Shown in pieces: positions 1-58,605 of a stretch of 64,000 bases of DNA. Source of the stretch: Lichina pygmaea (Eukaryota; Ascomycota; Lichinomycetes; Lichinales; Lichinaceae); assembly GCA_963422465.1 (NCBI GenBank), contig OY730173.1:62001-126000 (forward strand). Reading direction: 5' to 3'. The notes beneath the pieces are model-generated. The model did not search any database. It was not told the DNA's origin and saw only the letters and a list, made by a program, of their open reading frames with translations. Position numbers and translations under genes: made by a program. How positions within the stretch are numbered: position 1 is the stretch's first letter; each line of letters begins with the position of its first letter.

Positions 1-852
1 CACGGAGTTCCGATCACGATCATTACAGACAGAGACAAACTCTTCACATCCAACTACTGGAAGACAATCAGTGCAGCCATGGGAACAAAACCCAAAATGT
101 CTACGGCCTATCACCCACGAACTGACGGCCAGACAGAGCGAGCAAACCAAGTCCTGGAGACTTACCTACGGCATTACATCAACAAAACCCACAGCAATTG
201 GGTACAATTATTACCGGTGGCACAGCTGGCAATCAACCAGCACAGATCAGACTCAACAAAGGAATCACCATTTTTTGCCAATTTTGGACGACATGCAAAC
301 ATCGGGATGCCAAGCAGAGCTTCACCAAACACGGAGAAAGCACTCCAACATGACAAGCTCCTACGACAAACGCACACGATGATAAGGCACTACCTTCAAG
401 AGACCTCAGAAAGAATGCAACGCCAAATGGACAAGAAATCGAAAATGGCACCTCAGCTAAAGAAGGGGGATAAAGTCTACCTCCTCACAAGAAATTGGAA
501 AACGAAGAAACCAAGAACAAAGAAACTGGACCATGTTAAGGTCAGACCATTTTCAGTCGAAGAAAGAACTGGACCAGTCAACGTCAGACTGCGACTACCA
601 AGGGATGCCAGAGTCCATCCAAACTTTCATATATCAATGATTGAACCAGCCGACCAGAGCACACCCTTGCAGGAAACATTCCATTACCAACCTGAAGAAG
701 AACAAGAATTTGAGGTTGAACAGATCCTGGCTAGGAAAGGTCAGCAATACCTTGTCAAGTGGAAAGGATACCCAGACTCAGAAAATACCTGGGAACCACT
801 CAAGAACCTCGCGAACTGCCAGCTTCTTCTGCGACAGTTTCGGCAGGAATAG
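1..852 (+). CDS. Ty3/Gypsy pol, integrase core to chromodomain (5' partial)
   Basis: The frame is open from the first base and ends at TAG 850-852. It would insert cDNA and target chromatin in the nucleus. The start shows the second catalytic Asp region (ITDRDKLFTSNYW), then the QTDGQTE-type region ending in the catalytic Glu (DGQTERANQ). A KKGDKVYLLTRNW segment follows, typical of the GPY/F part of chromoviral integrases, and then VHPNFHISMIEP. The C-terminus is a chromodomain (EFEVEQILARKGQQYLVKW, then [16 protein letters not shown]) with the aromatic residues of methyl-lysine readers. No stop or frameshift is seen. Upstream gag, protease, RT and RNase H lie outside the window. Confidence 0.93.
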   Translation, partial: HGVPITIITDRDKLFTSNYWKTISAAMGTKPKMSTAYHPRTDGQTERANQVLETYLRHYINKTHSNWVQLLPVAQLAINQHRSDSTKESPFFANFGRHANIGMPSRASPNTEKALQHDKLLRQTHTMIRHYLQETSERMQRQMDKKSKMAPQLKKGDKVYLLTRNWKTKKPRTKKLDHVKVRPFSVEERTGPVNVRLRLPRDARVHPNFHISMIEPADQSTPLQETFHYQPEEEQEFEVEQILARKGQQYLVKWKGYPDSENTWEPLKNLANCQLLLRQFRQE

Positions 853-895
853 GACCGAACAGCTCGGCCTGCAGGAGGGATGCGTCAATGACTGA

Positions 896-1300
896 TCAAG
901 TCAAATCCTCGCCATCCGACTCTATCTCTTTCACCAAGCACTGAAGCTTCTGCCTCGCACGGACCTCGGCGCCCTCCAACACCTTTCGCTTCCGAGACAG
1001 ACGAGCCTGCACTGTGGCAAGTTGTTCAAAGAGTGCATCACGTGTTGCCTTGTCAGCGGCAACATCCTCACGGAGGTTGTCCCGGGACATGTTCAAAGAT
1101 TCCCAGGACACAGAGACACAAGACCTTCCGTGCTGAGTGCACGCAGCACATTTCAACTTATCGTCCTCTCCCGGCATCTGGAAGCATGGACGACCACGGA
1201 GAACACAAAAGTCGCAGGGCGTACGCGAAACAAAACCCTGATCGCAGATTTGAGCAGCCAGCTGAGTTCGGCTAACAGTCACACATGACTTTGGAGGTAT
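896..1300 (-). CDS. Antisense Zn2Cys6-like protein of GypA (start codon lost)
   Basis: The opposite strand between pol and the 3' LTR holds an open frame of about 134 codons ending at TGA 898-896. It contains C-x2-C-x6-C-x11-C-x2-C-x6-C (from PCDFCVLRGRPC to KCAACTQHGRSC), the exact spacing of fungal Zn(II)2Cys6 DNA-binding domains. A charged, Leu/Ala-rich stretch follows (NLREDVAADKATRDALFEQL onward) that could be a coiled coil. Sister copies start MSPKS/MSAKS; here the ATG is ATA at 1300-1298, so translation would need the GTG at 1282. The frame starts 44 bp from the LTR. I infer DNA binding from cysteine spacing alone, and the basic residues of classic family members are only partly present. 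Confidence 0.72.
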   Translation of the reverse strand: MPPKSCVTVSRTQLAAQICDQGFVSRTPCDFCVLRGRPCFQMPGEDDKLKCAACTQHGRSCVSVSWESLNMSRDNLREDVAADKATRDALFEQLATVQARLSRKRKVLEGAEVRARQKLQCLVKEIESDGEDLT

Positions 1301-1343: not shown

Positions 1344-1369
1344 TGTTACGACCCAGGAGGAACACAGTC

Positions 1370-1375
1370 TTTATA
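1370..1375 (-). promoter_or_regulatory. Antisense TATA box in GypA LTR
   Basis: On the minus strand the sequence reads GTATATAAAGAC. It is about 70 bp upstream of the original start codon of the antisense cysteine-rich frame and about 27 bp inside the LTR edge. The same box is at 15428-15435 (GTATAAAG) in GypA-2 and at 25708-25713 (TATAAA) in GypA-3. Its function as a promoter is inferred. Confidence 0.6.
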
Positions 1376-1500
1376 TACTCACAGAAAGCAGCAGACAGGA
1401 TACTGGACGGAAGTACCAGACAGCGTGACACGGGAACCGGTCACGTGACCGGCGAGACAAACCAGGGGGTGCTCGCCGCAGCATGCATATGCACGAACAA

Positions 1501-1720
1501 GTGAGCAAAGTGAGCAGAGCTCACCCAGCTCGCCGCAGCGTGCATGAAAAGTGAGCAAAGTGAGCAGAGCTCACCCAGCTTGCCGCAGCGTGCATGAAAA
1601 GTGAGCAAAGTGAGCAGAGCTCACCCAGCTCACTGCAGCGTGCATGAAAAGTGAGCAAAGTGAGCAGAGCTCACTTATCTCACCGAGTGAGCAAAGTGAG
1701 CAGAGCTCACTCTGCTCACG
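1501..1720 (+). repeat. 50-bp tandem repeats in GypA U3
   Basis: Three near-identical 50-bp units begin at 1501, 1551 and 1601, followed by a rearranged partial unit. Each starts GTGAGCAAAGTGAGCAGAGC and runs into TCACCCAGCT, so GTGAGC occurs twice as a direct repeat and once inverted as GCTCAC per unit. The array lies between the antisense and sense TATA boxes. It may be a set of binding sites that controls LTR promoter strength. Confidence 0.9.
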
Positions 1721-1730
1721 AACTGGGCAC

Positions 1731-1774
1731 TATATAGCCAGGCGATAGTTCCCCTATGGAACGATCGTCTTCAA
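1731..1774 (+). promoter_or_regulatory. Sense TATA box and predicted mRNA 5' end of GypA
   Basis: TATATA at 1731-1736 is conserved in all GypA LTRs. About 31 bp downstream lies GTCTTCAA (1767-1774), which is complementary to the TTGAAGAC located two bases after the 5' LTR in GypA-3 (plus-strand 31076-31083). This is the arrangement expected if the mRNA 5' end folds back to prime reverse transcription. Confidence 0.6.
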
Positions 1775-1975
1775 CTCATGTTGTGATCCAGACAACTAGA
1801 TCTACTTCAATACAATCCTTTTGTACGAAGCCGTTGATCAGGTGTCACCACCACCACGTTCCACCAAACCCCTTCGCACTCCTTGACACTCCTCTCCTGC
1901 GAGAACCAACCCGCCTTCCACCTCTCGCCCTAATCCTATACTCGGATAGGACGGTACGGTACGGACCGCAACACA

Positions 1976-14928: not shown

Positions 14929-15460
14929 TGTTGCGGTCTGTACTGTACTGTCCTATCCGAGTATAGGATTAGGGCGAGAGGTGAAAGGCAGGTTGGTTCT
15001 CACAGGAGAGGAGTGTCAAGGAGTGTGAAGGGGTTTGGTGGAACGTGGTGGTGATGACACCTGATCAGTGGCTTCGTACAAGATTGTATTGAAGTAGATC
15101 TAGTTGTCTGGATCACAACATGAGTTGAAGACGATTGTTCCATAAGGGAACTATCACCGGACTATATAGTGCTCAGTCTGTGAGCTCAGTGAGCTCTGCT
15201 CACTTTGCTCACTTGTTCATGCATGCTGCAGTGAGCTGGGCAAGCTCTGCTCACTTTGCTCACTGTTCATGCATGCTGCGGTGAGCTGGGCAAGCTCTGC
15301 TCACTCTGCTCACATATATGCATGCTGCGGTGAGCACCCCCTGGTCAGTCTCGCCAGTCATGTGACTGTTTCCCGTGTTATGCTGCCTGGTACTTCTGTC
15401 CAGTATCCTGTCTGCTGCTTTCTGTGAGTATAAAGACTGTGTTCCTCCTGGGTTGTAACA
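14929..15460 (-). repeat. 3' LTR of GypA-2 (532 bp)
   Basis: It runs TGTTGCGGTC..GGTTGTAACA in plus-strand view. The sense TATATA is at 15163-15168, GAGCTCTGCTCACTTTGCTC repeats lie at about 15188-15330, and an antisense-strand GTATAAAG is at 15428-15435. TTGAAGAC at 15125-15132 is the plus-strand form of the self-priming leader. The E-box palindrome has decayed to CAGTCATGTGACTG. Confidence 0.93.
15428..15435 (+). promoter_or_regulatory. Antisense-gene TATA box (GTATAAAG)
   Basis: This lies about 25-32 bp before the inner LTR edge and about 75 bp upstream of the ATG at 15504. It is a good match to a TATA box for the antisense frame and is conserved in position with the boxes at 1370-1375 and 25708-25713. 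Confidence 0.6.
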
Positions 15461-15503: not shown

Positions 15504-15908
15504 ATGTCTCCAAAGTCACATGCGACTGTTAGCTGAACTCAGCTTGCTACTCAAATCCATGATCAGGATTTTGTTTTACGTACACCCTGCGACTTTTGTG
15601 TTCTCTGTGGTTGTCTGTGCTTCCAGATACCAGGGGAAGACAATAAGTTGAAATGTGGTGTGTGCACTCAGTGCGGGAGGTCTTGTGTCTCTGTGTCCTG
15701 GGAATCCCTGAACATATCCCGGGACAACCTTTGTGAGGATGTGGCCACTGAAAAAGCAACACACAACACACTCTTTGAATAACTTGCTGTGGTGCAAGTT
15801 TGTCTGTCTCAGAAGTGAAAGGTGTTGGAAGGTGCTGAGGTCTGTGCGAGGCAGAAGCTTCAGTGTCTGGTGAAAGAGATAGAGTCAGATGGCGAGGATT
15901 TGACTTGA
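15504..15908 (+). pseudogene. Antisense Zn2Cys6-like frame of GypA-2
   Basis: It starts with ATG (MSPKSHATVS) 44 bp from the LTR and ends at the same TGA as in GypA-1. Cysteine spacing C-x2-C-x6-C-x11-C-x2-C-x6-C is retained (PCDFCVLCGCLC to KCGVCTQCGRSC), although several extra Cys codons arose from CGN codons. Stops after VS, FE and QK break it. Overall it is collinear with 896-1300 without indels. Confidence 0.75.
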
Positions 15909-15951
15909 TCAGTCATTGACATGTCCCTTCTGCAGGCCAAGCTGTTTAGTC

Positions 15952-18900
15952 CTACTCCTGCTGAAACTGTCGCAGAAGAAGCTGGCAGTTCGCAAGGTTC
16001 TTGAGTGGTTCCCAGGTATTCTCTGAGTCTGGGTATCCTTTCCACTTGACAAGGTATCACTGACCTTTCCTAGCCAGGATCTGTTTGACTTTGAATTCTT
16101 GTTCTTCTTCAGGTTGATAATGAAATGTTTCCTGCAAGGGTGTGCTCTGGTCGGCTGGTTCAATCATTAATATATGAAAGTTTGGATGGACTCTGGCATC
16201 CCTTGGTAGTCGCATCTTGATGTTGACTGGTCCTGTTTTCTCTTTAACCAAAAATAGTCTGACCTTGATATTGTCAAGTTTCTTTGTTTTTAGCTTTTTT
16301 GTTTTCCAATTTTTTGTGAGGAGGTAGACTTTATCCCCCTTCTTTAGCTGAGGTGCCATTTTCAATTTTTTGTCTATTTGGCACTGCATTTTCTCTGAGG
16401 TCTCTTGAAGGTAGTGCCTTATCATCGTGTGTGTTTGTCATAGGAGCTTGTTATGTTGGAGTGCTTTCTCCATGTTTGGTGAAGCTCTGCTTGGCATTCT
16501 GATGTTCACATGTTGTCCAAAATTAGCAAAGAATAGTGATTCCTTTGTTGAGTCTGATCTGTGCTGGTTGATTGCCAGCTGTGCCACCGGTAATAACTGT
16601 ACCTAATTGCTGTGGGTCTGGTTGATGTAATGCTGTAAATAAGTCTCCAGGACTTGGTTTGCTCACTCTGTCTGGCTGTCAGTTTGTGGGTGATAGGCTG
16701 TAGATATTTTGGGTTTTGTTCCCATGGCTGCACTGATTGTCTTCCAGTAGTTGGATGTGAAGAGTTTGTTTCTGTCTGTAATGATCATGATTGGAACTCT
16801 GTGGTCTCTGACCAATCTGTCCAGTAAGAGGTGTCCCAACTGTTCTGCTGTGTGGGTCTTCTTGAATAGTACCACTATTAGATATTTTGTGAATCTGTCC
16901 ACTATCACCATAATTGAGTTGTAGGTGATTCCTGTGACTGGGTCTTTGGACTTGGGTAGCTTTGTGATGAAGTCCATTGACACATCTTCCCACAGGCCTC
17001 TTGGTATCATGTTCGGGTGTCCTTCTCCATATAGCTTATGTCTTCTGTGTTTGTTTTTCTGGCATAGTAGACATTTGCTGATGTAGCTTGTGACATGTTA
17101 TCAGAGGTTGATGACATTATTCCCTGCCTGTTGGATAAGGTCTGTGGTCTTGGTGATTCCTGGGTAACCATGTGCTGGGTTGTTGTGGTAGTTCCTTATT
17201 AATTCTTCAGTGTCTTCTGCTGTGAGCTTGTTGATCTGTGGTCAAGGCACCAGGTTTCCTTGCTGGTCCTGCTGTAAGATTGTTCCTTGGTGTTCATCAT
17301 CTTCCATGTGGTCTTTTTGTCAGCTTAGTATGTCTGCTCTCCTGTTGTCTTGTCCAGGGGTGTACAAGATCTTGAACTTGTGTTGCTCTAGGAGTTCAGC
17401 CCATCTGACTTGTCGTCTGTTCAGCTTCTTGGTTGTTGTGAACATTGTCAGATTCTTGTGGTCTGTGAGAACAGTGAGTTCAGAACTGCTTTCTGCGTAC
17501 ACTCTCCAGTGTTCAAGTGTGTTGACAACTGCCAGTAGCTCTTTATTGTGGATATCATAGTTCTGTTCTGCTTGTGTTATTTTTTGTGAGTAGTAGGCAA
17601 CTGGGTGCCACTTGTTGTCTGCCTGTTGGCATAAACATGCTCCCACTGCCTGATCTGAAGCATCTGTCTTGATTTGTGTTGGTTGGCCTGTCTTGAAGTT
17701 GAGGAGAACTGGTTCCTTGGTGCAAGTGTCCTTGAGCTGCTGGAATACTTTTTGTTATCTGTCTGTCCACTGGTACTCCACATTCTTCTTTGTGAGTTCT
17801 GTCAGTGGTGTTACCATCTGTGAGTAGTTCTTGATGAACTGTCAGTTGAAGTTGGCAAATCCTAGGAAGGCTTGTACTTCCTTAACTGATGTCAGTGTTA
17901 GCTATTGTTGAATCACTTTGATTTTCTCAGGGTTGATCTTGATCTTTTTGATTCCTATGATGTATCTGAGGAATTCAACTTCTGGTTTGTTGAACTCACA
18001 TTTCTTCAGGTTGAGCTTGAGCCCTGTCTTTTGTAGGCATTATAGAACATCCTTCACATGTTTGGTATGTTCCTGTTGTGTGTTTGAGTAGACAAGAATG
18101 TTGTCCAAGTAGGTGATAGCTGTTTGGTCCAGGTGTGCTCTGATGATGTTGTTGATCAATGCTTGACATATTGCTGGTGTGTTTGTGAGTCTGAATAGTA
18201 TAACCAGATACTTGTAGTGTCTGTATCAGGTTCTGAAGGCTGTCTTCTATTCTTCTCCTTCTTTCATGCATATCAGGTTGTATGCTTCTTTCAAGTCCAG
18301 CTTGGTAAAGATTGTAGCTTGGCTGATCCTGTCATGCAATTTGTTCGCATTTGGCAACAGATATCAGTTCTTGATGGTAATATTGTTGAGTTTCCTGTAA
18401 TCCACACAAAGTTGAAGACTTCTGTCTTTCTTTGGTGCAAATAGTATCAGGTATCCTGCTGGCGATTGAGATTCTTGAATGAAACCCTTTTTCAGGTTTT
18501 CCTCCAGGTACTTGTGAAGTACTTGGAGCTCTTTCTCTGATAACTGGTAAATTAGTCCAAATCCTGGCTCTGTCCCTGGTTGCAACTTGATCTCATGATC
18601 CCAAGGTTGGTGCTTAGGTAACACTGCTATTGTTGTCTTTTCCTGAAAGAGGTTATCATACCCAGGTCAGTACTCTTCAGAGATCTCCAGAGGGTTAACA
18701 ACTTCCTCTCTCTTCATCTCTGACTGTTTGGCCACCTGGTTCTGGCGTGTACCTGTCAAGGCAGACCTCTTCTCTTGAGAGTCATCCTTTCTGTTGGTGA
18801 GGTTCCACTGAGGACTTCTTCCCTTATCTGTCTACACCTTCTGTGGCTGGTAACAGGTCTGAGCTGTGTTGTTAGTGCAGTTCCTAAACGTGAGTACTTC

Positions 18901-20800: not shown

Positions 20801-21368
20801 TGTTGCGGTCTGTACTGTACTGTCCTATCTGAGTATAGGATTAGGGCAAGAGGTGGAAGGCAGGTTGGTTCTCACAGGAGAGGAGTGTCAAGGAGTGTGA
20901 AGAGGTTTGGTGGAACATGGTGGTGATGACACCAGATCAGTGGCTTTGTACAAGATTGTATTAAAGTAGATCTAGTTGTCTGGATCACAACATGAGTTGA
21001 AGATGATTGTTCCATAAGGGAACTATCACCAGACTATATAGTGCTCAGTCTGTGAGCTCAGTGAGCTCTGCTCACTTTGCTCACTCAGTGAGATTGGTGA
21101 GCTCTGCTCACTTTGCTCACTTGTTCATGCATGCTGCAGTGAGCTGGGCAAGCTCTGCTCACTTTGCTCACTGTTCATGCATACTGCGGTGAGCTGGGCG
21201 AGCTCTGCTCACTCTGCTCACGTATATGCATGCTGCGGCGAGCACCCCCTGGTCAGTCTTGCCAGTCATGTGACTGTTTCCCGTGTTATGCTGCCTGGTA
21301 CTTCTGTCCAGTATTCTGTCTCCTGCTTTCTGTGAGTATAAAGACTGTGTTCCTCCTGAGTCGTAACA
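20801..21368 (-). repeat. 5' LTR of GypA-2 (568 bp)
   Basis: It has the same ends as the 3' LTR but one more 36-bp repeat block, so the two LTRs differ by about 36 bp plus transitions. The primer site just inside reads GGTCTCCAAAG in plus-strand view, one base changed from the GGTCTTCAAAG of GypA-3. Confidence 0.92.
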
Positions 21369-25142: not shown

Positions 25143-25743
25143 TGTTGCGGGCTGTACCGTACTGTCCTATCCAAGTATAGGATTAGAGTGAAAGGTGGAA
25201 GGTGGGTTGGTTCTTGCAGGAGAGGAGTGTCAAGGAGTGCGAAGGGGTTTGGTGGAACATGGTGGTGGTGACACCTGATCAATGGCTTTGTACAAAAGGA
25301 TTGTATTGAAGTAGATCTAGTTGTCTGGATCACAACATAAGTTGAAGATGATTGTTCCATAAGGGAACTATCGCCAGACTATATAGTGCTGGCCTGTCAA
25401 GATGATCAAGATTGTCTTGACAGTCTTGACGTCAAGACAGGTGAGATTGTCTTGACAGTCCCACCATGTTATACACTCTGCGTCAAGACTGGTAAGATTG
25501 TCTTGATGCTTCATGCATCCTGCGTCAAGACTGGTGAGATTGTCTTGATGCTTCATGCATCCTGCGTCAAGACTGGTAAGATTGTCTTGATGCTTCATGC
25601 ATGCTGCGTCAAGACTCCTGTGTGTGTCTCGACAGTCACGTGACCCCTTGTTGGTTGGTCACTTGACTTCCATGGTGTCCTCTTGCCTGGCCTGCAGCCT
25701 GATTGCCTATAAATGAGTGGCTCCCATCCCCTGGGTTGTAACA
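25143..25743 (-). repeat. 3' LTR of GypA-3 (601 bp)
   Basis: The first 240 bp (plus view) match GypA-1 and GypA-2 LTRs, including TATATA at 25380-25385. The centre is three 42-bp units starting GCGTCAAGACTGGT at 25480, 25522 and 25564, next to TGTCTTGACAGTCTTGACG palindromic blocks. GTCACGTGAC is kept at 25635-25644. On the antisense side TATAAA lies at 25708-25713. Confidence 0.92.
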
Positions 25744-25787: not shown

Positions 25788-26288
25788 ATGTCTGCAAAAT
25801 CACATACCTCTACTTACCAAAACCAACTGGCAGCCCAGATCTGTGATCATAACTTTGTGTCGCTTGCTCTGTGTGACTTCTATGTTTTGAACCACAAGTC
25901 CTGCTTCTGAATGTCTGACAACAACAATAAATTGAAGTGTGCTGAATGCACTTGTTGTGGGAAGTCCTGTGTGTCACTTTCTTGGGAGTCGCTGAACATG
26001 ACTCAGGATAACCTTCGTGAGGATTTGGCTGTTGATGAGGCTAAGCAGGATGCTCTTGTTGAGCAGCTTGCCAAGCTGCAGGCTTGTGTGTCCTGAAAGC
26101 AAAAGATTCTTGAAGGTGCTGAAGGCCGAGCAAAGAAGAAGCTCCAGTGTCTTGTTGCTGAAATGGAGGTGGATGGTGAAGACTTGTCGGCGACAGTCAT
26201 TGACATGTCTGTACTGCAGGCCGAGCTGTTCAGTCCTGCCTCTGCCGGAACTGCTGCAGGAGGAGCTGGCAGTTCACGAGGTTCCTGA
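25788..26288 (+). pseudogene. Antisense Zn2Cys6-like frame of GypA-3
   Basis: ATG at 25788 (MSAKSHTSTYQNQLAAQI) is 45 bp from the LTR. It is collinear with 896-1300: CDFYVLNHKSCF, stop, then KCAECTCCGKSCV, WESLNMTQDNLREDL, a second stop, and KILEGAEGRAKKKLQCL. One cluster Cys is Tyr (TGT to TAT). Unlike GypA-1, the frame runs on to 26288 and overlaps the pol 3' end by about 55 bp. Similarity to GypA-1 is clear at the protein level despite divergence. Confidence 0.72.
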
Positions 26289-31085: not shown

Positions 31086-31684
31086 TGTTGCGGTCTGTAC
31101 TGTACTATCCTATCCGAGTATAGGATTAGGGCGAAAGATGGAAGGCGAGTTGGTTCTCGCAGGAGAGGAGTGTCAAGGAGTGTGAAGGGGTTTGGTGGAA
31201 CATGGTGGTGGTGACACCTGATCAATAGCTTTGTACAAAAGGATTGTATTGAAGTAGATCTAGTTGTCTGGATCACAACATAAGTTGAAGATGATTGTTC
31301 CATAAGAGAACTATCACTGGACTATATAGTGCTGGCCTGTCAAGACAATCAAGATTGTCTTGACAGTCTTGATGTCAAGATGGGTGAGATTGTCTTGACA
31401 GTCCCACTATGTTATACACCCTGCGTCAAGACTGGTGAGATTGTCTTGATGCTTCATGCATCCTGTGTCAAGACTGGTGAGATTGTCTTGATGCTTCATG
31501 CATCCTGTGTTGAGACTGGTGAGATTGTCTTGATGCTTCATGCATGCTGTGTCAAGACTCCTGTGTGTCTTGACAGTCACGTGACCCCTTGTTGGTTGGT
31601 CACTTGACTTCCATGGTGTCCTCTTGCCTGGCCCGCGGCCTGATTGCCTATAAATGAGTGGCTCCCATCCCCTGGGTCGTAACA
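31086..31684 (-). repeat. 5' LTR of GypA-3 (599 bp)
   Basis: Nearly identical in layout to 25143-25743, including the 42-bp repeats at about 31422-31547 and TATATA near 31322. The TGTGT duplication follows at 31685. Confidence 0.93.
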
Positions 31685-38915: not shown

Positions 38916-39505
38916 GAAAAAACTCTTCCCAGTACCACTACGTTCAAGGACCATCACTTCTGATAATCACCGGACTTTGTCAGAAGTTCTGGAAACCAAG
39001 CGAGTATCTGTTGGGAACCACCAAAACCTTAAGGTGAAAACCCATCACTTTGGGTAACCCAGCTTGTTTGTCAAAAGTTGTGATCTCTGAATCTTCGATC
39101 TTCAACTTCAACAACCAACAGACTATCTATAACAAGGCAGAGAGTGGCCAGTGGGATTCTGAAAGACTGGGGACAGGCCCCAAGTACCTAGGAACACTCA
39201 GTCTTGGGGTGTGGTCCCAGGATTGAGCAAGTACTCCCAGTCAGACAGATAACAGCTTGAACTTCTCTCAAGAGAAACATCTAGCATCAAGGAGATCAGG
39301 GCTCCCAGGATAAGAGAAATAGTTTAGAGCTTGCCTCTAGTGCTGGTAGAGTTGAAAAACTCTAGGAAAGCTCAGGCAGGGGGTGTGGTCTCCAGCTTGA
39401 GTTAATACAGCCAGATTTCCCTAGAGTCTAGTTGGAAAAGACTGCCCAGGAAAGTACAGTCTTGGGGAGTGGTCCCAGGATTGTGCAATTACTGCTAGGA
39501 ACCAG
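38916..39505 (+). promoter_or_regulatory. LINE-A 5' UTR / internal promoter region
   Basis: The first about 15 bases (GAAAAAACTCTTCCC) differ from La7; from AGTACCACTACGTTC on both are alike. A degenerate unit of about 40 bp (GGGGTGTGGTCCCAGGATTG and variants) occurs three times, at about 39202, 39372 and 39459, which may be a repeated regulatory site. A short open frame before ORF1 cannot be judged. Confidence 0.55.
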
Positions 39506-40948
39506 GTGACCCTTTGTGAACAACCCACTGTGCAGGTTACCTACCCTATGCCTGTCAAAAAGAAGAAACCGGACTCCTCCCAGAACACTACCAGAAAAAC
39601 AACACCTTCTCCAACAATGCCAGCTCCCAGTTCTGCTGGTACTCAGCCTAGTTCTTCTACCCCCTATCCAGCTCTCCAGAATGACTACAACCTACTGGAC
39701 TCATGGCTCAAGACTCAAGCTACCCCAGAATCTGTACTGAAAAGCTGGGAGAATATTAAGAAAAACTCTTGTACTAATGAAGCCCAGTCCACCAAAACCC
39801 AGTCTCTCCCCACTGGTCTGACCAACAAGATTTTCCAGGAGCTGGAGAATATTAGCAAGCGGCTAGACAAGCAAGAATCCAAGCCATCATATGCCCAGGC
39901 TGTTCAGAAACATATCCCAGCTCAAATCCCTCTAGCTCCAAGGATTCTGAAGGAAGTTCTTGTCCACCCTGGTAACCAGACACCTGATATGGCCAACAGG
40001 ACTCACATCCAGCTTTTTCAAGCTCTCCAAGACAGACTCCCCAGTCCCTATAATAAACAAGTCAGAGCAGTGAGAAAACTTCCCTCAGGGGACATTCTTA
40101 TTAACACTGAAACCCAAGAGACTAAGAGTTTTCTGGAGAAAGACTCTGCCTGGATATCAGCTATTTTTACCAAGGAAGCAACTATCCAACCCAAGAGATT
40201 CCCAGTGTTGATTCATGGAGTCAGAACCACAGACATCCAGCCAGAAAACCTGGAAAAAACTCGCCAGACTATCCAGAACAGCAACCCATCCCTGAGCAAG
40301 CAAATCACTATTCTAAGAGCCTACTGGTCAAAGAAGGCTATAGCTCAAAAGAAACCAGTTACTTCACTCCACCTGGATCTGGCCACCCCGGAACAGGCCA
40401 ATCTTCTAATTGAGAGTGGAGTAGTGCTGGGCCACAGATTGCATGAGGCAGAGCCTTTTCTGGCTAACACAGTGGTGGCACAATGCTTCAAGTGCTTTGG
40501 GTATGGACACCAAGCTCGCCTGTGCAGGAATCAAGCTGTATGTGGTGCCTGTGGAGGCCAGCATGAAAGAAGAACCTGCCAAATCCCTGAGCAACTGCTA
40601 AAGCCAAAATGCAGCAACTGCAAAGGAGCTCACCCAGCCTGGGCTAGCACATGCCCAGTACGCCAAGAAGCAGTCAAGAAGGCAAGAGAGGCATGGATTT
40701 CCCGCCCAGGGAAGTATGAGATCTCCACTGCTACCACTGTCCCAGTCACACAGTCTCCAGTTACTTTCCCCTTCATACAGACTCTTCCAGGGGGAAAAAG
40801 ACGGAAAACCACAGAGCCAACTAGAAGCTCAGAGAGACTCAGAGGAGGGTCTCCAGAAGTGCAAATTCTGTCTACAAGATCAACAAACACAGGGGGAAAG
40901 CAGTCAGTCAACCCCTTCAAGATCTTTGAAGATGAAATGTCTACATGA
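39506..40948 (+). CDS. LINE-A ORF1, zinc-knuckle RNA-binding protein (480 aa)
   Basis: A Gag-like nucleic-acid-binding protein that would coat LINE RNA in the ribonucleoprotein. The first 140 residues are Pro/Ser/Gln-rich; residues about 150-320 form the conserved core (RAVRKLPSGDILINTETQE, FPVLIHGVRTTDI, LRAYW). Three knuckles follow: C-x2-C-x4-H-x4-C at about 327 (CFKCFGYGHQARLC), C-x2-C-x3-H-x4-C at about 346 and C-x2-C-x3-H-x6-C at about 370, the trio known from I/R1/Tad-type LINEs. A basic GGKRRK lies near 432. The stop overlaps the ORF2 start as ATGA (40945-40948). The start is the first ATG of the frame; an in-frame ATG lies at codon 15. Confidence 0.95.
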   Translation: MTLCEQPTVQVTYPMPVKKKKPDSSQNTTRKTTPSPTMPAPSSAGTQPSSSTPYPALQNDYNLLDSWLKTQATPESVLKSWENIKKNSCTNEAQSTKTQSLPTGLTNKIFQELENISKRLDKQESKPSYAQAVQKHIPAQIPLAPRILKEVLVHPGNQTPDMANRTHIQLFQALQDRLPSPYNKQVRAVRKLPSGDILINTETQETKSFLEKDSAWISAIFTKEATIQPKRFPVLIHGVRTTDIQPENLEKTRQTIQNSNPSLSKQITILRAYWSKKAIAQKKPVTSLHLDLATPEQANLLIESGVVLGHRLHEAEPFLANTVVAQCFKCFGYGHQARLCRNQAVCGACGGQHERRTCQIPEQLLKPKCSNCKGAHPAWASTCPVRQEAVKKAREAWISRPGKYEISTATTVPVTQSPVTFPFIQTLPGGKRRKTTEPTRSSERLRGGSPEVQILSTRSTNTGGKQSVNPFKIFEDEMST

Positions 40949-43900
40949 AGAATACAAAGTTCACACTTCTTCAATACAATGTGCAGAAAAGCCAATCAGT
41001 CCAAGAGCTACTTCTAGCAACCCCAACTCTTCAAGAAGTAGATATTATTGCACTTCAAGAACCCTGGAAGAATCCTCACCTTCAAACCAGCACCTCAACT
41101 GTTTTTTCTTCTTTTCTTCCTTTATATTCTCCAGAGATTGGTAGAACTCTTTTTCTTATTAACAAAAACCTGAATCTGTCATCTCTCCACCCTACTTTCT
41201 GGAGTAAAGACTTTGTTTCTCTTGAAATTCATCTGGAAAACACCTCTACTTCTCTGTGGGTGTATAATCTATACTTCACTCCCTCAAGTCAAGAGAACTA
41301 CCTACAAGCATCAGAAGCTCTTCTCTGTCTACTCCAAAATGTTTTACAAGCAAAAGGGCAGCATATTCTTCTTACAGACTCAAATCTTCACCACCCTGAC
41401 TGGTCAAAGAAAAGAAGACTATATTCTGACACTGCACACAAGTTCCAAACTCTAATGAAAAACTCAAATCTGGAGTTAGCTATTGCACCTTTTACACCCA
41501 CAAGAGCTAGATCTCTTTCCCACAAACCCTGTTCACCTATTGATCTTTCCTTTATATCTTCTTCTCTTTCTAACTCTCTAATCTTTTCTAAAATTGCTTT
41601 GCAGTTCTTTCATGGGTCTGACCACAGACCTGTGCTAACTAGCCTGGACCTGGACTCACCAAGAAAAACCTGGAAGCCAGAAAGGAACTGGAAAACACTG
41701 GACACAAACCTGGCAAAACAAGAGTGTAATAATTTGCAGCTGCCCTTCCACTTTCAAGATAAACATGAAGTGGATGAGTACTTGGAATATCTTAACCACT
41801 TTCTCCAAGAAATAGCAGACAGATGCACAGAACTCCAGAAGCAATCTAGCCACTCAGTCCCCTGGTGGAACCAAGAGATCCAAACTAAAGTTAAGCAGGA
41901 AAGAAGAATAAGAAGACAAGTGCTCAGAGGACAGGCAAGCCAAGAAGAGCTAGAAGAAGCAACTAAGCTCAAGAAGAAAGCTGTCAGAGAAGGCAAACAG
42001 AACACCTTCAGAAAACAAGTCCATGAGCTAGCCAGTTCCTCAAAATTCTGGAAGCTTGCAAAGTGGGGAAAATCAAAAGCTAACAAGACCCCTGATCTTC
42101 CTCTGGTCCCTGATCTGGAGACTCAAGAAGGACTAGCCAAAAGCTTTGAGGAGAAGACAAAATCTTTCTCAGCTCAATTCTTTCCAGAAGCACGTGTCCC
42201 AGAACCAAGTACAGAAAGTCACCAGAGTACCCCAGAGATCCAGCTTTCCCAGGAGGTTACCACTGAAGAAGTGGAGCAAATTCTGAACAAGAAGAAACCT
42301 TTTACAGCAGGAGGAAAAGACAAGCTGCCAAATGGATTTCTGAAAGCTCTGGGTCCCAAGTTCTGCCAAGCTATAGCTGTTCTCACATCAACATGCTGGA
42401 GACTGGAATACTTTCCAGAGAAATTCAAGAATGCAAAAACAGTCTGTCTAAGAAAACCTGGCAAGGGAATCTATAACCAAGCTAAAGCCTGGCGCCCTAT
42501 AGCTCTGCTAAACACAACTGGCAAGCTGATGGAAGCTATTACAGCAGCCAGACTAAGCAAGGTAGCAGAAGAGGCTAAACTCTTGCCAGAAATCCAGATG
42601 GGGTTCAGGAAAGGCAGATCAACTGAATCAGCACTTTTCCTTCTAACTTCCCAAGTGGAAAAAGTCTGGAAAGAAGGCATGGTTGCATCTCTACTTTCTC
42701 TGGACATCTCAGGAGCATATGACAGAGTTCTTCCAGAGATTCTTCAAAAGATTCTGGAGAGAAAAGGAATCCCTCTCTGGCTAACTTCTTGGATCTTCTC
42801 TTTCTGTACCAGACGTACCACCACCCTAGTTTTTGATGACTCTGAGTCCTCTTCTATTCCTATTCACTGTGGAGTTCCCCAAGGTTCCCCTTTGTCTCCT
42901 ATTCTTTTTCTATTCTATATTTCTGAACTTCATGAGACTGTACATTCTCCTACTACTGGTGTTTCTGCTCTGGGATTTGCAGATGATACAAATCTGCTTG
43001 CATTTGGACACTCTCTTAAAAGCAACCTTCTGAAGTTGAAGAATACACATCTTAAATGTCTATCTTGGGCTGCAAGACATGGAATGGTCTTCTCTCCTGA
43101 GAAATATGAAATACTTCATTTTTCCAGAAGAAGATCAGACAATCTGCAGCTCAAGCTTAGACTTGGGAATGTGATTCTAAAACCAAAAGAAGAAGTGCGA
43201 GTATTGGGAGTGTACCTGGATGCCAAACTCCACTGGCACAAACACCAGAGAATTATTCTTCAAAAAGCACAAAAAGCACTATCTTCTCTTTCTAGAACCT
43301 CTTACTCCACCTGGGGCTTTCCAGTTCTCACAGCACGCCTTGTGTACACTGCAATACTCAGATCTGTACTGAGCTATGCAGTGGGAATTTGGTTCAACCC
43401 ACTCAGAAAATCCTCTAATATTTCCTCTCTTATCATATTCCAAAACAAATGTCTGAGACTTATTGGGGGTGCTTTCAAAGCCACTCCTTCTTTTCTATTA
43501 GAGAGTGAGCTTTTTCTTTTACCTCTAGATCTCTATTTTAAATTTCGCACAGCTTGTTTTCTATCTTCTATCCAAACCTCCTCTCTGAAAGACTTTCTTG
43601 ACAGTACCTTTGCTACTATTTCTTCCTATGCTTCTTCACTGAGGAAACCTTTAAAGAAATCCTCAACTATCTCTCCTAATTGGAAGTTCACTTGGTTAAG
43701 TCAAATAACTACTAACCAGGCTAGTTCAAAGAAAGAACTACAAATACTCTTTACTAAAGAGTGGGAAAACCAATGGGAGGAGAAGAAAAGAAAAGGCTAT
43801 GCTGGATGGCAGGTGTTTTGCCAAAAACCTCACTACAACAACCTAAAGCTCTACAAAGAGCTACAGAAAGCTGAGGCAAGTCTACTACTGCAAACCAGAA

Positions 43901-44187
43901 CTGGGAGAATTGGTCTAGCAAGTTTTCTTTTCAGAGCTGGAGTCCCTGACTTTCCTACCCCCCTATGCATGTGTGGTCAAGCAGAAGAGACAGTAAAGCA
44001 TATCACCTCTTCATGCTCTCTCTACTCAAGTCAAAGACAACATGCTCTCTTTAACCCCCAAGATTTCACTACTATTATTTCAAACCCAGAGCTTCTACAG
44101 AAGTTTCTGTACTGGTTTATGTCTTTGAAAAGACTAAACCAATTTAATCTGGCTTTCAAACTTCACTATTCACACTCCAACATCTAG
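40945..44187 (+). CDS. LINE-A ORF2, endonuclease-reverse transcriptase (1080 aa)
   Basis: The enzyme nicks target DNA and copies LINE RNA there. Residues 1-235 are an APE-type endonuclease (LLQYNVQKS, ALQEPW, LLTDSNLHHPDW, GSDHRPVL). Residues of about 440-760 are the RT: RPIALLNTTGKLMEAI, GFRKGRSTESALF, SLDISGAYDRV, GVPQGSPLSP, FADD at about 678-681 and LGVYLDAKLHWHKH. A C-terminal C-x-C-x8-H-x4-C finger (CMCGQAEETVKH) lies near 1008. I see no RNase H domain between RT and finger. Start overlaps the ORF1 stop, suggesting termination-reinitiation. Closest by layout to Tad/I-like fungal LINEs; the clade is uncertain. Confidence 0.96.
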   Translation: MKNTKFTLLQYNVQKSQSVQELLLATPTLQEVDIIALQEPWKNPHLQTSTSTVFSSFLPLYSPEIGRTLFLINKNLNLSSLHPTFWSKDFVSLEIHLENTSTSLWVYNLYFTPSSQENYLQASEALLCLLQNVLQAKGQHILLTDSNLHHPDWSKKRRLYSDTAHKFQTLMKNSNLELAIAPFTPTRARSLSHKPCSPIDLSFISSSLSNSLIFSKIALQFFHGSDHRPVLTSLDLDSPRKTWKPERNWKTLDTNLAKQECNNLQLPFHFQDKHEVDEYLEYLNHFLQEIADRCTELQKQSSHSVPWWNQEIQTKVKQERRIRRQVLRGQASQEELEEATKLKKKAVREGKQNTFRKQVHELASSSKFWKLAKWGKSKANKTPDLPLVPDLETQEGLAKSFEEKTKSFSAQFFPEARVPEPSTESHQSTPEIQLSQEVTTEEVEQILNKKKPFTAGGKDKLPNGFLKALGPKFCQAIAVLTSTCWRLEYFPEKFKNAKTVCLRKPGKGIYNQAKAWRPIALLNTTGKLMEAITAARLSKVAEEAKLLPEIQMGFRKGRSTESALFLLTSQVEKVWKEGMVASLLSLDISGAYDRVLPEILQKILERKGIPLWLTSWIFSFCTRRTTTLVFDDSESSSIPIHCGVPQGSPLSPILFLFYISELHETVHSPTTGVSALGFADDTNLLAFGHSLKSNLLKLKNTHLKCLSWAARHGMVFSPEKYEILHFSRRRSDNLQLKLRLGNVILKPKEEVRVLGVYLDAKLHWHKHQRIILQKAQKALSSLSRTSYSTWGFPVLTARLVYTAILRSVLSYAVGIWFNPLRKSSNISSLIIFQNKCLRLIGGAFKATPSFLLESELFLLPLDLYFKFRTACFLSSIQTSSLKDFLDSTFATISSYASSLRKPLKKSSTISPNWKFTWLSQITTNQASSKKELQILFTKEWENQWEEKKRKGYAGWQVFCQKPHYNNLKLYKELQKAEASLLLQTRTGRIGLASFLFRAGVPDFPTPLCMCGQAEETVKHITSSCSLYSSQRQHALFNPQDFTTIISNPELLQKFLYWFMSLKRLNQFNLAFKLHYSHSNI

Positions 44188-44264
44188 AAGCTTTTCCTAC
44201 CAGACACTACAAGATTTCCTTTTGCTACACTTTCTAGTCACCTCCCTGTCTTCAGTTTTTATTC

Positions 44265-44283
44265 CTTTAAAGGTTTTCTGAAG
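44265..44283 (+). other. LINE-A 3' UTR hairpin in La6
   Basis: Stem CTTTA / TGAAG (one U-G pair) around loop AAGGTTTTC, about 75 nt before the tail. The same in La7 on the minus strand. Confidence 0.55.
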
Positions 44284-44356
44284 AAGTCCACTATTAGCTG
44301 GAAGATCTGCATGGCTGTAAAGCTACAAACAGTGTAAGAATCAAATCAAAAAAAAA

Positions 44357-46285
44357 AATTCTTCCAGTCCTGATTTGCAGTAGCAGACTTGCCTCAGCTT
44401 TCTGTAACTCTTTGTAGAGCTTCAGATTGTTTTTGTGTGGCTTTTGACAGAAAGTCTGCCAGCCTGGATAGCTTCTTCTTTTCTTCTCTTCCTATTGGTC
44501 TTCCCACTCTTTAGTAAAGAGCTTTTGTAGTTCTTTCTTTGAACTAGCCTGGTTAGTAGTTATTTGACTTAACCAAGTGAATTTCCACTTAGGAGAGATA
44601 GTTGAGGATTCCTTTAAAGGTTTCTTCAAGAGAGAGGCATAGCTGGAAATAGTGGAAAAGATACTGTCAAGAAAGTATTTGAGAGGGGAGTTTTGAATAG
44701 AAGAAAGAAAACAGGCAGTGCGAAATTTAAAGTATAGGTCTAGAGGTAGAAGAAAAAGCTCACTCTCTAATAGAAAAGAAGGAGTGGCTTTGAAGGCACC
44801 CCCAATAAGTCTTAGGCATCTGTTTTGAAATGAAACAAGAGAAGAGATATTGGAGGATTTTCTTAGAGGGTTAAACCAGATCCCCACTGCATAGCTCAGT
44901 AGAGATCTCAGTATAGCAGTGTACACCAGACGTGATGTGTGAACTGGAAAGCCTCAAGTAGAATAGGAAGTTCTAGAAAGAGAAGAGAGTGCTTTCTGTG
45001 CTTTTTGAAGAATAATCCTCTGGTGTTTGTGCCAGTGGAGCTTTGCATCTAGGTACACTCCAAGTACTCGCACTTCTTCTTTTGGTTTGAGAATCACATT
45101 CCCCAGTCTGAGCTTGAGCTGAAGATTGTCTGATCTTCTTCTGGAAAAATGAAGTATTTTATATTTCTCTGGTGAGAAGACTATTCCATGTCTTGTAGCC
45201 CAGGATAGACATTTGTGGTGTGTTCTTTAACTTCAGAAGGTTACTTTTCAAGGAGTGACCAAAAGCAAGCAGATTTGTATCATCTGCAAACCCCAGGGCA
45301 GATACACCAGAAGAGGGAGTATGCAGTCTCATGCAATTCAGAAATGTAGAATAGAAAAAGAATAGGGGATAATGGAGAACCTTGAGGAACTCCACAATGA
45401 ATAGGAATTGAACAAGACTCAGAATCATCAAAGACAAGAGTGGTAGAGCACTTATCACAGAAGGAGTAGATCCAGGAAGCTAGCCAGGCTGGTATTCGTT
45501 TTCTTTTCAGAATTTGCTGTAGTATCTTGGGGAGAACTCTGTCATAGGCTCCTGAGATATCCAGTGAGAGTAGGGATGCAACCATGCCTTCCTTCCAGAC
45601 TTTTTCCACTTGGAAGGTTAGAAGGAAAAGTGCTACTTCTGTGGATCTTCCTTTCCTAAAGCCCATCTGGATATCTGGCAATAGTCCAGCTTCTTCTGCT
45701 ATCTTGCTTAGTCTGGCTGCAGCAATAGCTTCCATCAGCTTGCCTGTTGTGTTTAGCAGAGCTATAGGGCGCCAGGCTTTAGCTTGATTGTAGGTTCTCT
45801 TGCCAGGTTTCCTCAAGCAGACTGTTTTTGCACTCTTAAATCTTTCAGGGAAGTACTCCAGTTTCCAGCATGTTGAAGTCAGAATAGCTAGAGCTTGGCA
45901 GAACCTAGGCCCCAGAGCTCTCAGAAATCTATTTGGCAGCTTATCTCTCCCTCCTGCTGTGAAAGGTTTCTTCTTGGCCAGAATTTGCTCCACTTCTTCA
46001 CATGTTACCTCCTGGGAGAGCTGTATCTCAGAGATAGTCTGGGAGCTTTCTGAGCCTGGTTCTGGAACTAGAGCTTTTGGAAAGAACTGTTGTGAGAAGG
46101 CTTTAGTCTTTTCCTCAAAGGTTTTGGCTATTCCTTCTTGTGTTTCCAGGTCAGGAACCAGAGGAAGATCAGGAGTCTTGTTGGCTTTGGACTTTCCCCA
46201 CTTTGCAAGCTTCCAGAACTTTGAAGAGCTGGCCAGCTCATGGATTTGGTGTCTGAAAGTGTTCTGTTTTCCATCTCTGACTGCC
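44357..46285 (-). mobile_element. LINE-A La5, 5' part
   Basis: This resumes La5 after the duplicated AATTCTTCCAGT and runs to the ORF2 spacer before the RT (VRDGKQNTFRHQIHELASS). It ends at about 46285 inside a GypB RT. The other end of La5 lies in LINE-B, so the flanks do not match and a deletion after insertion is likely. Confidence 0.9.
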
Positions 46286-53156: not shown

Positions 53157-53335
53157 TATTTTTTTTTTTATTTTTTATTTGATTCTTACACTGTTTGTAG
53201 CTTTACAGCCATGCAGATCTTCCAGCTAATAGTGAACTTCTTCAGAAAACCTTTAAAGGAATAAAAACTGAAGACAGGGAGGTGACTAGAAAGTGTAGCA
53301 AAAGGAAATCTTGTAGTGTCTGGTAGGAAAAGCTT

Positions 53336-56300
53336 CTAGATGTTGGAGTGTGAATAGTGAAGTTTGAAAGCCAGATTAAATTGGTTTAGTCTTTTCAAAG
53401 ACATAAACCAGTACAGAAACTTCTGTAGAAGCTCTGGGTTTGAAATAATAGTAGTGAAATCTTGGGGGTTAAAGAGAGCATGTTGTCTTTGACTTGAGTA
53501 GAGAGAGCATGAAGAGGTGATATGCTTTACTGTCTCTTCTGCTTGACCACACATGCATAGGGGGGTAGGAAAGTCAGGGACTCCAGCTCTGAAAAGAAAA
53601 CTTGCTAGACCAATTCTCCCAGTTCTGGTTTGCAGTAGTAGACTTGCCTCAGCTTTCTGTAGCTCTTTGTAGAGCTTTAGGTTGTTGTAGTGAGGTTTTT
53701 GGCAAAACACCTGCCATCCAGCATAGCCTTTTCTTTTCTTCTCCTCCCATTGGTTTTCCCACTCTTTAGTAAAGAGTATTTGTAGTTCTTTCTTTGAACT
53801 AGCCTGGTTAGTAGTTATTTGACTTAACCAAGTGAACTTCCAATTAGGAGAGATAGTTGAGGATTTCTTTAAAGGTTTCCTCAGTGAAGAAGCATAGGAA
53901 GAAATAGTAGCAAAGGTACTGTCAAGAAAGTCTTTCAGAGAGGAGGTTTGGATAGAAGATAGAAAACAAGCTGTGCGAAATTTAAAATAGAGATCTAGAG
54001 GTAAAAGAAAAAGCTCACTCTCTAATAGAAAAGAAGGAGTGGCTTTGAAAGCACCCCCAATAAGTCTCAGACATTTGTTTTGGAATATGATAAGAGAGGA
54101 AATATTAGAGGATTTTCTGAGTGGGTTGAACCAAATTCCCACTGCATAGCTCAGTACAGATCTGAGTATTGCAGTGTACACAAGGCGTGCTGTGAGAACT
54201 GGAAAGCCCCAGGTGGAGTAAGAGGTTCTAGAAAGAGAAGATAGTGCTTTTTGTGCTTTTTGAAGAATAATTCTCTGGTGTTTGTGCCAGTGGAGTTTGG
54301 CATCCAGGTACACTCCCAATACTCGCACTTCTTCTTTTGGTTTTAGAATCACATTCCCAAGTCTAAGCTTGAGCTGCAGATTGTCTGATCTTCTTCTGGA
54401 AAAATGAAGTATTTCATATTTCTCAGGAGAGAAGACCATTCCATGTCTTGCAGCCCAAGATAGACATTTAAGATGTGTATTCTTCAACTTCAGAAGGTTG
54501 CTTTTAAGAGAGTGTCCAAATGCAAGCAGATTTGTATCATCTGCAAATCCCAGAGCAGAAACACCAGTAGTAGGAGAATGTACAGTCTCATGAAGTTCAG
54601 AAATATAGAATAGAAAAAGAATAGGAGACAAAGGGGAACCTTGGGGAACTCCACAGTGAATAGGAATAGAAGAGGACTCAGAGTCATCAAAAACTAGGGT
54701 GGTGGTACGTCTGGTACAGAAAGAGAAGATCCAAGAAGTTAGCCAGAGAGGGATTCCTTTTCTCTCCAGAATCTTTTGAAGAATCTCTGGAAGAACTCTG
54801 TCATATGCTCCTGAGATGTCCAGAGAAAGTAGAGATGCAACCATGCCTTCTTTCCAGACTTTTTCCACTTGGGAAGTTAGAAGGAAAAGTGCTGATTCAG
54901 TTGATCTGCCTTTCCTGAACCCCATCTGGATTTCTGGCAAGAGTTTAGCCTCTTCTGCTACCTTGCTTAGTCTGGCTGCTGTAATAGCTTCCATCAGCTT
55001 GCCAGTTGTGTTTAGCAGAGCTATAGGGCGCCAGGCTTTAGCTTGGTTATAGATTCCCTTGCCAGGTTTTCTTAGACAGACTGTTTTTGCATTCTTGAAT
55101 TTCTCTGGAAAGTATTCCAGTCTCCAGCATGTTGATGTGAGAACAGCTATAGCTTGGCAGAACTTGGGACCCAGAGCTTTCAGAAATCCATTTGGCAGCT
55201 TGTCTTTTCCTCCTGCTGTAAAAGGTTTCTTCTTGTTCAGAATTTGCTCCACTTCTTCAGTGGTAACCTCCTGGGAAAGCTGGATCTCTGGGGTACTCTG
55301 GTGACTTTCTGTACTTGGTTCTGGGACACGTGCTTCTGGAAAGAATTGAGCTGAGAAAGATTTTGTCTTCTCCTCAAAGCTTTTGGCTAGTCCTTCTTGA
55401 GTCTCCAGATCAGGGACCAGAGGAAGATCAGGGGTCTTGTTAGCTTTTGATTTTCCCCACTTTGCAAGCTTCCAGAATTTTGAGGAACTGGCTAGCTCAT
55501 GGACTTGTTTTCTGAAGGTGTTCTGTTTGCCTTCTCTGACAGCTTTCTTCTTGAGCTTAGTTGCTTCTTCTAGCTCTTCTTGGCTTGCCTGTCCTCTGAG
55601 CACTTGTCTTCTTATTCTTCTTTCCTGCTTAACTTTAGTTTGGATCTCTTGGTTCCACCAGGGGACTGAGTGGCTAGATTGCTTCTGGAGTTCTGTGCAT
55701 CTGTCTGCTATTTCTTGGAGAAAGTGGTTAAGATATTCCAAGTACTCATCCACTTCATGTTTATCTTGAAAGTGGAAGGGCAGCTGCAAATTATTACACT
55801 CTTGTTTTGCCAGGTTTGTGTCCAGTGTTTTCCAGTTCCTTTCTGGCTTCCAGGTTTTTCTTGGTGAGTCCAGGTCCAGGCTAGTTAGCACAGGTCTGTG
55901 GTCAGACCCATGAAAGAACTGCAAAGCAATTTTAGAAAAGATTAGAGAGTTAGAAAGAGAAGAAGATATAAAGGAAAGATCAATAGGTGAACAGGGTTTG
56001 TGGGAAAGAGATCTAGCTCTTGTGGGTGTAAAAGGTGCAATAGCTAACTCCAGATTTGAGTTTTTCATTAGAGTTTGGAACTTGTGTGCAGTGTCAGAAT
56101 ATAGTCTTCTTTTCTTTGACCAGTCAGGGTGGTGAAGATTTGAGTCTGTAAGAAGAATATGCTGCCCTTTTGCTTGTAAAACATTTTGGAGTAGACAGAG
56201 AAGAGCTTCTGATGCTTGTAGGTAGTTCTCTTGACTTGAGGGAGTGAAGTATAGATTATACACCCACAGAGAAGTAGAGGTGTTTTCCAGATGAATTTCA

Positions 56301-58017: not shown

Positions 58018-58605
58018 CTGGTTCCTAGCAGTAATTGCACAATCCTGGGACCACTCCCCAAGACTGTACTTTCCTGGGCAGTCTTTTCCAACTAGACTCT
58101 AGGGAAATCTGGCTGTATTAACTCAAGCTGGAGACCACACCCCCTGCCTGAGCTTTCCTAGAGTTTTTCAACTCTACCAGCACTAGAGGCAAGCTCTAAA
58201 CTATTTCTCTTATCCTGGGAGCCCTGATCTCCTTGATGCTAGATGTTTCTCTTGAGAGAAGTTCAAGCTGTTATCTGTCTGACTGGGAGTACTTGCTCAA
58301 TCCTGGGACCACACCCCAAGACTGAGTGTTCCTAGGTACTTGGGGCCTGTCCCCAGTCTTTCAGAATCCCACTGGCCACTCTCTGCCTTGTTATAGATAG
58401 TCTGTTGGTTGTTGAAGTTGAAGATCGAAGATTCAGAGATCACAACTTTTGACAAACAAGCTGGGTTACCCAAAGTGATGGGTTTTCACCTTAAGGTTTT
58501 GGTGGTTCCCAACAGATACTCGCTTGGTTTCCAGAACTTCTGACAAAGTCCGGTGATTATCAGAAGTGATGGTCCTTGAACGTAGTGGTACTGCTGGCAA
58601 GATGT
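58018..58605 (-). promoter_or_regulatory. LINE-A 5' UTR of La7
   Basis: Inverse copy of 38929-39505 plus 13 different bases at the extreme 5' end. No gene inside. Confidence 0.55.

Follow-up and report, generated by a model that had tools for sequence, protein, structure and literature searches.

An antisense zinc-cluster gene and putative operators in the long terminal repeats of the GypA retrotransposon of Lichina pygmaea

The window analysed here, 64,000 nucleotides of Lichina pygmaea contig OY730173.1 (positions 62,001 to 126,000; assembly GCA_963422465.1), carries three copies of GypA, a chromodomain Ty3/Gypsy element in which an open reading frame (ORF) runs antisense between pol and the 3' long terminal repeat (LTR). 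We find that this frame is a conserved protein gene, and we consider it probable, at about 60%, that its product is a self-encoded autoregulator which would bind palindromes in the U3 region of the element's own LTRs.

A sequence-only reading of the window had proposed a 134-codon frame at 896-1300 on the minus strand, collinear among the three copies. The frame exists, and it lies at the same place beside the 3' LTR in each copy; its length had to be corrected to 166 codons (800-1300), judged from better preserved copies elsewhere in the genome. The ORF begins on the inner side of the 3' LTR, about 45-50 bp from its edge, and at its other end it overlaps the last bases of pol, which run on the opposite strand, by 53 bp in copy 1. 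Copies 1 and 2 belong to subfamily A and copy 3 to subfamily B; the types sampled in the genome are A, B (including L066, a divergent B) and D (two loci, L079 and L080). In 59 of the 65 other copies of A and B, pol stays open past the copy-1 stop position, ending at most 39 bp beyond it. The cysteines of copy 1 are spaced C-x2-C-x6-C-x11-C-x2-C-x6-C, and the Zn(II)2Cys6 spacing read earlier in copies 1 and 2, with one Cys to Tyr change in copy 3, is confirmed. None of the three window copies has an intact ORF. All are decayed, copy 1 having ATA instead of ATG and TGA at codon 135, and copies 2 and 3 having premature stops (Table 1). Many apparent C-to-T changes at CpG are visible by eye in GypA copies (window and L009-L084), on both strands and to a degree that varies by copy. 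One locus, L061 (1459-1956), has a B-type antisense ORF that is open but has no LTR next to it; the DNA preceding it resembles no part of GypA.

The 32.5-Mb genome (8 contigs) was searched with the antisense protein by tblastn, and 150 of 504 candidates were scored, all 150 rows spanning the whole query. The counted set comprises 31 copies of A and 33 of B, or 34 of B when L066 is included, window copy 1 being locus L009 and counted once; all of these bear the ORF. Because they were retrieved by similarity to the antisense protein, the tally of stops and open frames that follows is biased towards preserved copies. Among 64 copies, the antisense frame has 1.14 stops per 501 nucleotides, and the five other frames have 2.6-11.3. 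The antisense frame is fully open in 17 copies and each other frame in none, and all six cysteines are kept in 62. In the A-B comparison, the antisense frame has a nonsynonymous rate (dN) of 0.207, a synonymous rate (dS) of 1.25 and a ratio (omega) of 0.167, copy 1/L009 being counted twice in these dN/dS estimates, while four other frames give omega values of 1.08-1.54. Comparison of D with A and with B gives 0.13-0.24 in the antisense frame. Within subfamilies omega is 0.41-0.43, as expected from decay mixed with selection. Alignment columns in which A and B have no base in common number 23, 18 and 53 at codon positions 1, 2 and 3, respectively (p 1e-5). Purifying selection on the antisense frame, which had been named as the feature to look for, is thus borne out by both the A-B omega and the third-position bias. 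Several frames of more than 120 codons are open in copy 1, which could suggest that the antisense frame is open by chance or mirrors a gene on the sense strand, and one sense frame does have a low omega (0.27). However, that frame, the sole sense frame of this kind, shares third positions with the antisense frame and is never open, sense frames are open in 0 of the 64 copies, and the omega of the antisense frame speaks against chance; we regard this explanation as practically negligible. A sense-strand, env-like gene was rejected too, every one of the 64 copies having stops.

Successive rounds of protein searches returned 47, then 148, then 431 relatives; the latter two rounds used alignment queries at E 0.01 and 1e-6, and the best 120 matches of each were examined. 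Relatives among the matches listed come from Watsoniomyces, Sporormia, Cercospora, Macroventuria, Periconia, Elsinoe, Xanthoria and Variospora, and UniRef labels the Periconia relative as a Zn(2)-C6 fungal-type domain protein. Judged by these matches, the antisense protein is a member of a family found in many fungi. Proteins of the Zn2Cys6 class have the spacing C-x2-C-x6-C-x5..12-C-x2-C-x6..8-C, which is present in the aligned relatives and in window copies 1 and 2. The six cysteines are invariant in 107 aligned rows representing 106 distinct relatives, hand-picked from the matches listed with truncated and some other matches excluded; the expectation that the cysteine spacing would hold in a larger family alignment is upheld in 106 of 106. 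In alignment A3, they are present in 34/34 and 37/37 covered rows, row P0121 having longer loops. The Cys2-Cys3 loop is highly variable across relatives and differs by type (LRGRP in A, LRGQP in D, LNHKP in B); the second half of the cluster (xLKCAECTRxGxxCV) and the SWESL behind it are well conserved. A search of viral contigs and prokaryote genomes for relatives with flanking DNA found none, and the arrangement of ORF and LTR was examined in the Lichina pygmaea genome. Several distant relatives are on contigs of 6-7 kb, a length close to that of a retrotransposon of this kind.

AlphaFold models suggest a protein with an N-terminal Zn2Cys6 cluster that may be of the Gal4 type, followed by a long helix of about 60 residues that would form a coiled coil, and by an acidic tail. 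Over 33-38 residues, the model lies 1.3 Å from PPR1, 1.7 Å from LEU3, 1.7 Å from 1cld (which we take to be LAC9) and 2.1 Å from HAP1, a weak similarity. Sequence searches of solved structures found GAL4 without significance (E 0.14 and 0.95) and, with queries A5 and P0001, did not find it; a search of NCBIfam gave nothing useful. Weak matches to other, unrelated Pfam families were set aside, those with a known cut-off falling below it.

Within the LTR, about 25 bp from its edge, a TATAAA on the antisense strand precedes the start codon by 75 bp in A and by 79-80 bp in B. This box has nearly the same position in 63 of 64 copies (31/31 A, 32/33 B); the copy without it is L061, where there is no LTR, and it is absent also from L079 and L080, whose LTRs are flipped. 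The box is well placed for an antisense mRNA to begin close to the edge of the LTR, and we refer to it as a putative antisense promoter. In L080 (about 808-1335) and L079 (about 890-1456), it is the LTR beside the antisense ORF that is flipped, such that the sense LTR promoter would face the ORF; self-integration or a nested insertion may account for this.

Between the antisense and the sense TATA boxes lies an array of tandem palindromic repeats. It is found in both U3 types, with a common layout of CGAG, CGAG, CTCG and CTCG at 9-bp steps. Allowing one CpG decay per half-site, a scan of the window found 14 four-half-site palindromes, all within GypA LTRs, and none in 20 shuffled windows. The exact, undecayed palindrome occurs at 37 sites genome-wide, counted irrespective of their surroundings, and the reversed control pattern at 0. 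The repeats of B mostly hold three of the four half-sites, with one full palindrome adjoining the TATA box. The distance from the core of the last palindrome to the sense TATA box is 11 bp in 30/31 A, 33/34 B and 2/2 D copies, the remaining A and B copy not being measurable. The base that follows CGAG is C in 452 of 465 half-sites of A, A in 508 of 508 of B (including L066) and C in 25 of 28 of D. A half-site base that changes together with the cluster loop is the trace expected from a self-encoded factor of changed specificity. An RNA hairpin was rejected as the reason for the palindromes; it is unlikely because their spacers are mostly not complementary, pairing at just 22-46% of positions with G-T included, and the 87-98% pairing of half-sites arises partly by construction, four of six positions having been pre-selected.

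The two subfamilies differ strongly in the ORF and U3 and hardly elsewhere. In the window, transversions between A and B stay at 0-1% over R-U5, gag and most of pol, reach 3-6% where pol ends, and rise to 11-21% over the antisense ORF and U3. In 25 A-B genome pairs, they are 0.0% in R-U5, 0.1-0.7% in pol, 2-3% in the pol-end region, 12-13% in the ORF and 17-24% in U3 (U3 identity 60-68%); per 100 bp across the ORF, they vary between 6 and 16%. At fourfold-degenerate sites, with each of six A copies paired with each of six B copies, the two subfamilies differ by 1.3% in pol and 31.5% in the ORF. This 25-fold difference in rate is hard to obtain within one element, and the ORF and U3 block therefore has another history, involving recombination. 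No near-fixed A/B difference was found in 841 alignment columns of pol. Between A and D (L080), transversions are 4-6% in the ORF and 0-2.5% in pol just upstream. The last 110 codons of pol, which cover the chromodomain (500-852 in the window and the 3' ends of pol at the loci), have an intermediate A/B divergence of 6.5% at fourfold sites, and a second breakpoint or a partial exchange of the chromodomain near the end of pol is likely. No mismatch of ORF and U3 type between A and B was seen: a crude motif count assigned 32 A/A (one copy, copy 1/L009, double) and 25 B/B, leaving out 8 B copies, L079 and L080. Since gag-pol and R-U5 are near-identical and the antisense ORF and U3 strongly diverged, gene and putative operator appear to move as a cassette. 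On these alignments, the putative regulator and its putative operator are inherited and exchanged together.

Template switching is usual in LTR retrotransposons, and the A/B block might be due to ordinary recombination, with template switching or gene conversion having homogenised gag-pol and R-U5 and the ORF and U3 being merely neighbours. The block would then carry no information on function. This bears on the cassette and is compatible with the other explanations of the protein discussed below. Breakpoints are found close to the sense TATA box, as judged by eye, and late in pol, as such a process would have it. The pol trees speak to it in both directions: A/B type must change 5 times on a quick pol tree and 4 times on a careful one, against once on the ORF tree, starred branches force 2 and 1 of these changes, respectively, and 0% of 200 bootstrap pol trees need one change alone or make A and B exclusive; yet a single exclusive A clade in pol is not rejected (approximately unbiased test, p 0.238), which leaves the number of cassette exchanges uncertain. 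What ordinary recombination leaves unexplained is that the palindrome layout is kept in strongly diverged U3s and that one type-specific base is found in nearly every half-site. We consider it possible but doubtful as a full account.

We propose that the antisense mRNA would start at the LTR edge, and that the protein would dimerise through its coiled coil and bind the four-half-site palindromes between the two TATA boxes, where two dimers may occupy the four half-sites beside the sense TATA box. The bound protein would then regulate sense, and perhaps also antisense, transcription from its own LTR. Negative autoregulation, i.e. copy-number control, seems somewhat more likely than activation, because an element that acquired a new regulator-operator cassette could escape the repressors of resident copies. 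The antisense ORF and the U3 operators perhaps form an immunity module. A more specific version, by analogy with lambdoid phages, is a portable cassette of zinc-cluster repressor and U3 operators, the swapping of which by template switching would yield heteroimmune families that escape resident copy-number control, with CGAG+C/A and the loops LRGR/QP or LNHKP as one specificity code; this version we hold only tentatively.

The earlier proposal that GypA encodes its own DNA-binding regulator gains from the predicted fold and from the subfamily-specific palindromes in U3, while the binding itself is something we infer. Weighing against it is the Pfam search. The frame, for which a comparison with Zn_clus (PF00172) had been suggested, matches that model solely below the curated cut-off, with 10.0 bits against 21 for P0001, 14.2 for P0033 and 17.2 for P0207; among the relatives, 59 of 107 match at E <=1, the best at E 2.7e-4. 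Gal4 itself uses basic residues of the first cluster loop, and those of the GypA protein sit in the second half-cluster (TRRGK-P-C). Together with the weak similarity to Gal4-class folds, this would suit a functional antisense protein that is not a regulator of its own LTR, such as a nuclear integration cofactor, a factor that binds RNA or belongs to the particle, or a modulator of host genes, with the palindromes being sites for a host transcription factor. The evidence for coding is compatible with any protein function. However, the same half-site base shifts throughout the array with the type of the ORF, which is expected for a self-encoded factor and would otherwise be a coincidence, and the ORF and U3 block is likewise expected for such a factor; a protein of this other kind is, in our view, rather improbable. 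Very unlikely is that the antisense transcript acts as RNA, by interference or as a trigger of small RNAs, with the frame as a by-product. The antisense TATA box would make such an RNA, and in yeast, according to the available part of PMC12786077, antisense RNAs act against Ty1, but an omega of 0.17, the third-position bias and cysteines that are invariant in fungal relatives largely refute it by selection. An autoregulator acting on its own U3 remains the reading we prefer.

Table 1 Coordinates of GypA features in the window
Feature	Position	Strand	Remarks
3' part of pol, copy 1 (SH3_Tf2-1 domain and chromodomain)	1..852	+	domain matches
Antisense ORF, copy 1 (subfamily A)	800..1300	-	166-codon frame; pol overlap at 800-852
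3' LTR, copy 1	1344..1973	+	edges by pattern
Antisense TATA box, copy 1 (TATATAAA context)	1370..1375	-	75 bp before antisense start codon
Operator-like array, copy 1 U3	1501..1719	.	five four-half-site palindromes; cores start 1502, 1552, 1602, 1652, 1688
Sense TATA box CTATATAG, copy 1 LTR	1730..1737	+	11 bp past core of last palindrome
3' LTR, copy 2	14929..15460	-	antisense TATA 15429; palindromes 15181, 15232, 15282; sense TATA 15162
Antisense ORF, copy 2 (subfamily A)	15504..16004	+	six Cys, 4 premature stops
5' LTR, copy 2	20801..21368	-	palindromes 21053, 21089, 21140, 21190; outer edge by eye
3' LTR, copy 3	25143..25743	-	antisense TATA 25708; U3 repeat array up to 25637; full palindrome 25398; sense TATA 25379
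Antisense ORF, copy 3 (subfamily B)	25788..26288	+	one Cys to Tyr, 2 premature stops
5' LTR, copy 3	31086..31684	-	palindrome 31341

The window also holds an inverted pair of copies resembling long interspersed nuclear elements (38930-44358 and 53164-58593), which are 99.95% identical over 5.43 kb. Both carry the same pair of long ORFs (507 and 1083 amino acids, the second with endonuclease and reverse transcriptase domains), and the 4763-bp ORF stretch has 0 mismatches; this near-identity points to very recent activity.

An antisense gene at this position is already known; an operator and a cassette like the putative ones of GypA were not found in the literature searched. The brtn gene of Boty-like retrotransposons was reportedly treated by Zhao et al. 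in Virology in 2011. HBZ of HTLV-1, a human retrovirus, is likewise encoded by an antisense gene; it is a bZIP protein, not a zinc-cluster protein. In the available parts of PMC11963269 and PMC7264820, HBZ has its promoter in the 3' LTR and is a nuclear regulatory protein. The antisense gene brtn of Boty-like Botrytis retrotransposons is mentioned in the accessible parts of PMC8365987, PMC7264820, PMC4227169 and PMC5987419, and the second of these places it between pol and the 3' LTR. As far as these descriptions go, Boty and GypA are alike as fungal chromodomain Gypsy elements with an extra antisense gene at that place; by description, one cited form is brtn-106, against 166 codons in GypA. 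Antisense genes between pol and the 3' LTR are known also in plant LTR retrotransposons (Grande gene23, RIRE2 and Retand TRP28; excerpts of PMC7264820 and PMC11963269), and an antisense promoter is reported for Grande (PMC7264820, in part). These plant frames (aORF-3R) share position and orientation with the GypA ORF, and a nuclear or DNA-binding role has been suggested for them; they differ in protein domain (TRP28 in Retand), and the excerpts mention no matching LTR operator. Searches of the open-licence literature did not turn up a Zn2Cys6-type antisense ORF described together with matching operators in the LTR, and the word antisense is absent from the fungal retrotransposon surveys PMC4427930, PMC5872316, PMC3248453 and PMC12037069. 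According to the available part of PMC7264820, the function of antisense accessory genes of LTR retrotransposons is not known, though they have been described for years. In GypA the sites that the protein would probably bind can be seen in the element itself; their spacing and one of their bases track the gene, and function is therefore directly testable.

Gal4-class factors bind palindromic sites made of CGG pairs. The GypA protein resembles members of that class (GAL4, PPR1, PUT3, HAP1, LEU3) in its six-cysteine spacing, tentatively in its predicted fold, in the long helix after the cluster and the palindromic form of its putative sites. It differs in being encoded by a transposon, in having 166 amino acids only, in a first loop poor in basic residues, in scoring below the Pfam cut-off, and in candidate sites of four CGAG-core half-sites rather than CGG pairs. 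The immunity regions of temperate phages consist of a repressor plus its operators, and GypA is similar in that a putative regulator and its putative cognate sites form a block on otherwise near-identical elements; unlike them, it is a eukaryotic retrotransposon, with binding and repression predicted. Were the antisense ORF and U3 indeed an immunity module, GypA would be a eukaryotic retrotransposon that encodes its own type-specific copy-number control, and cassette swapping would explain the origin of new families.
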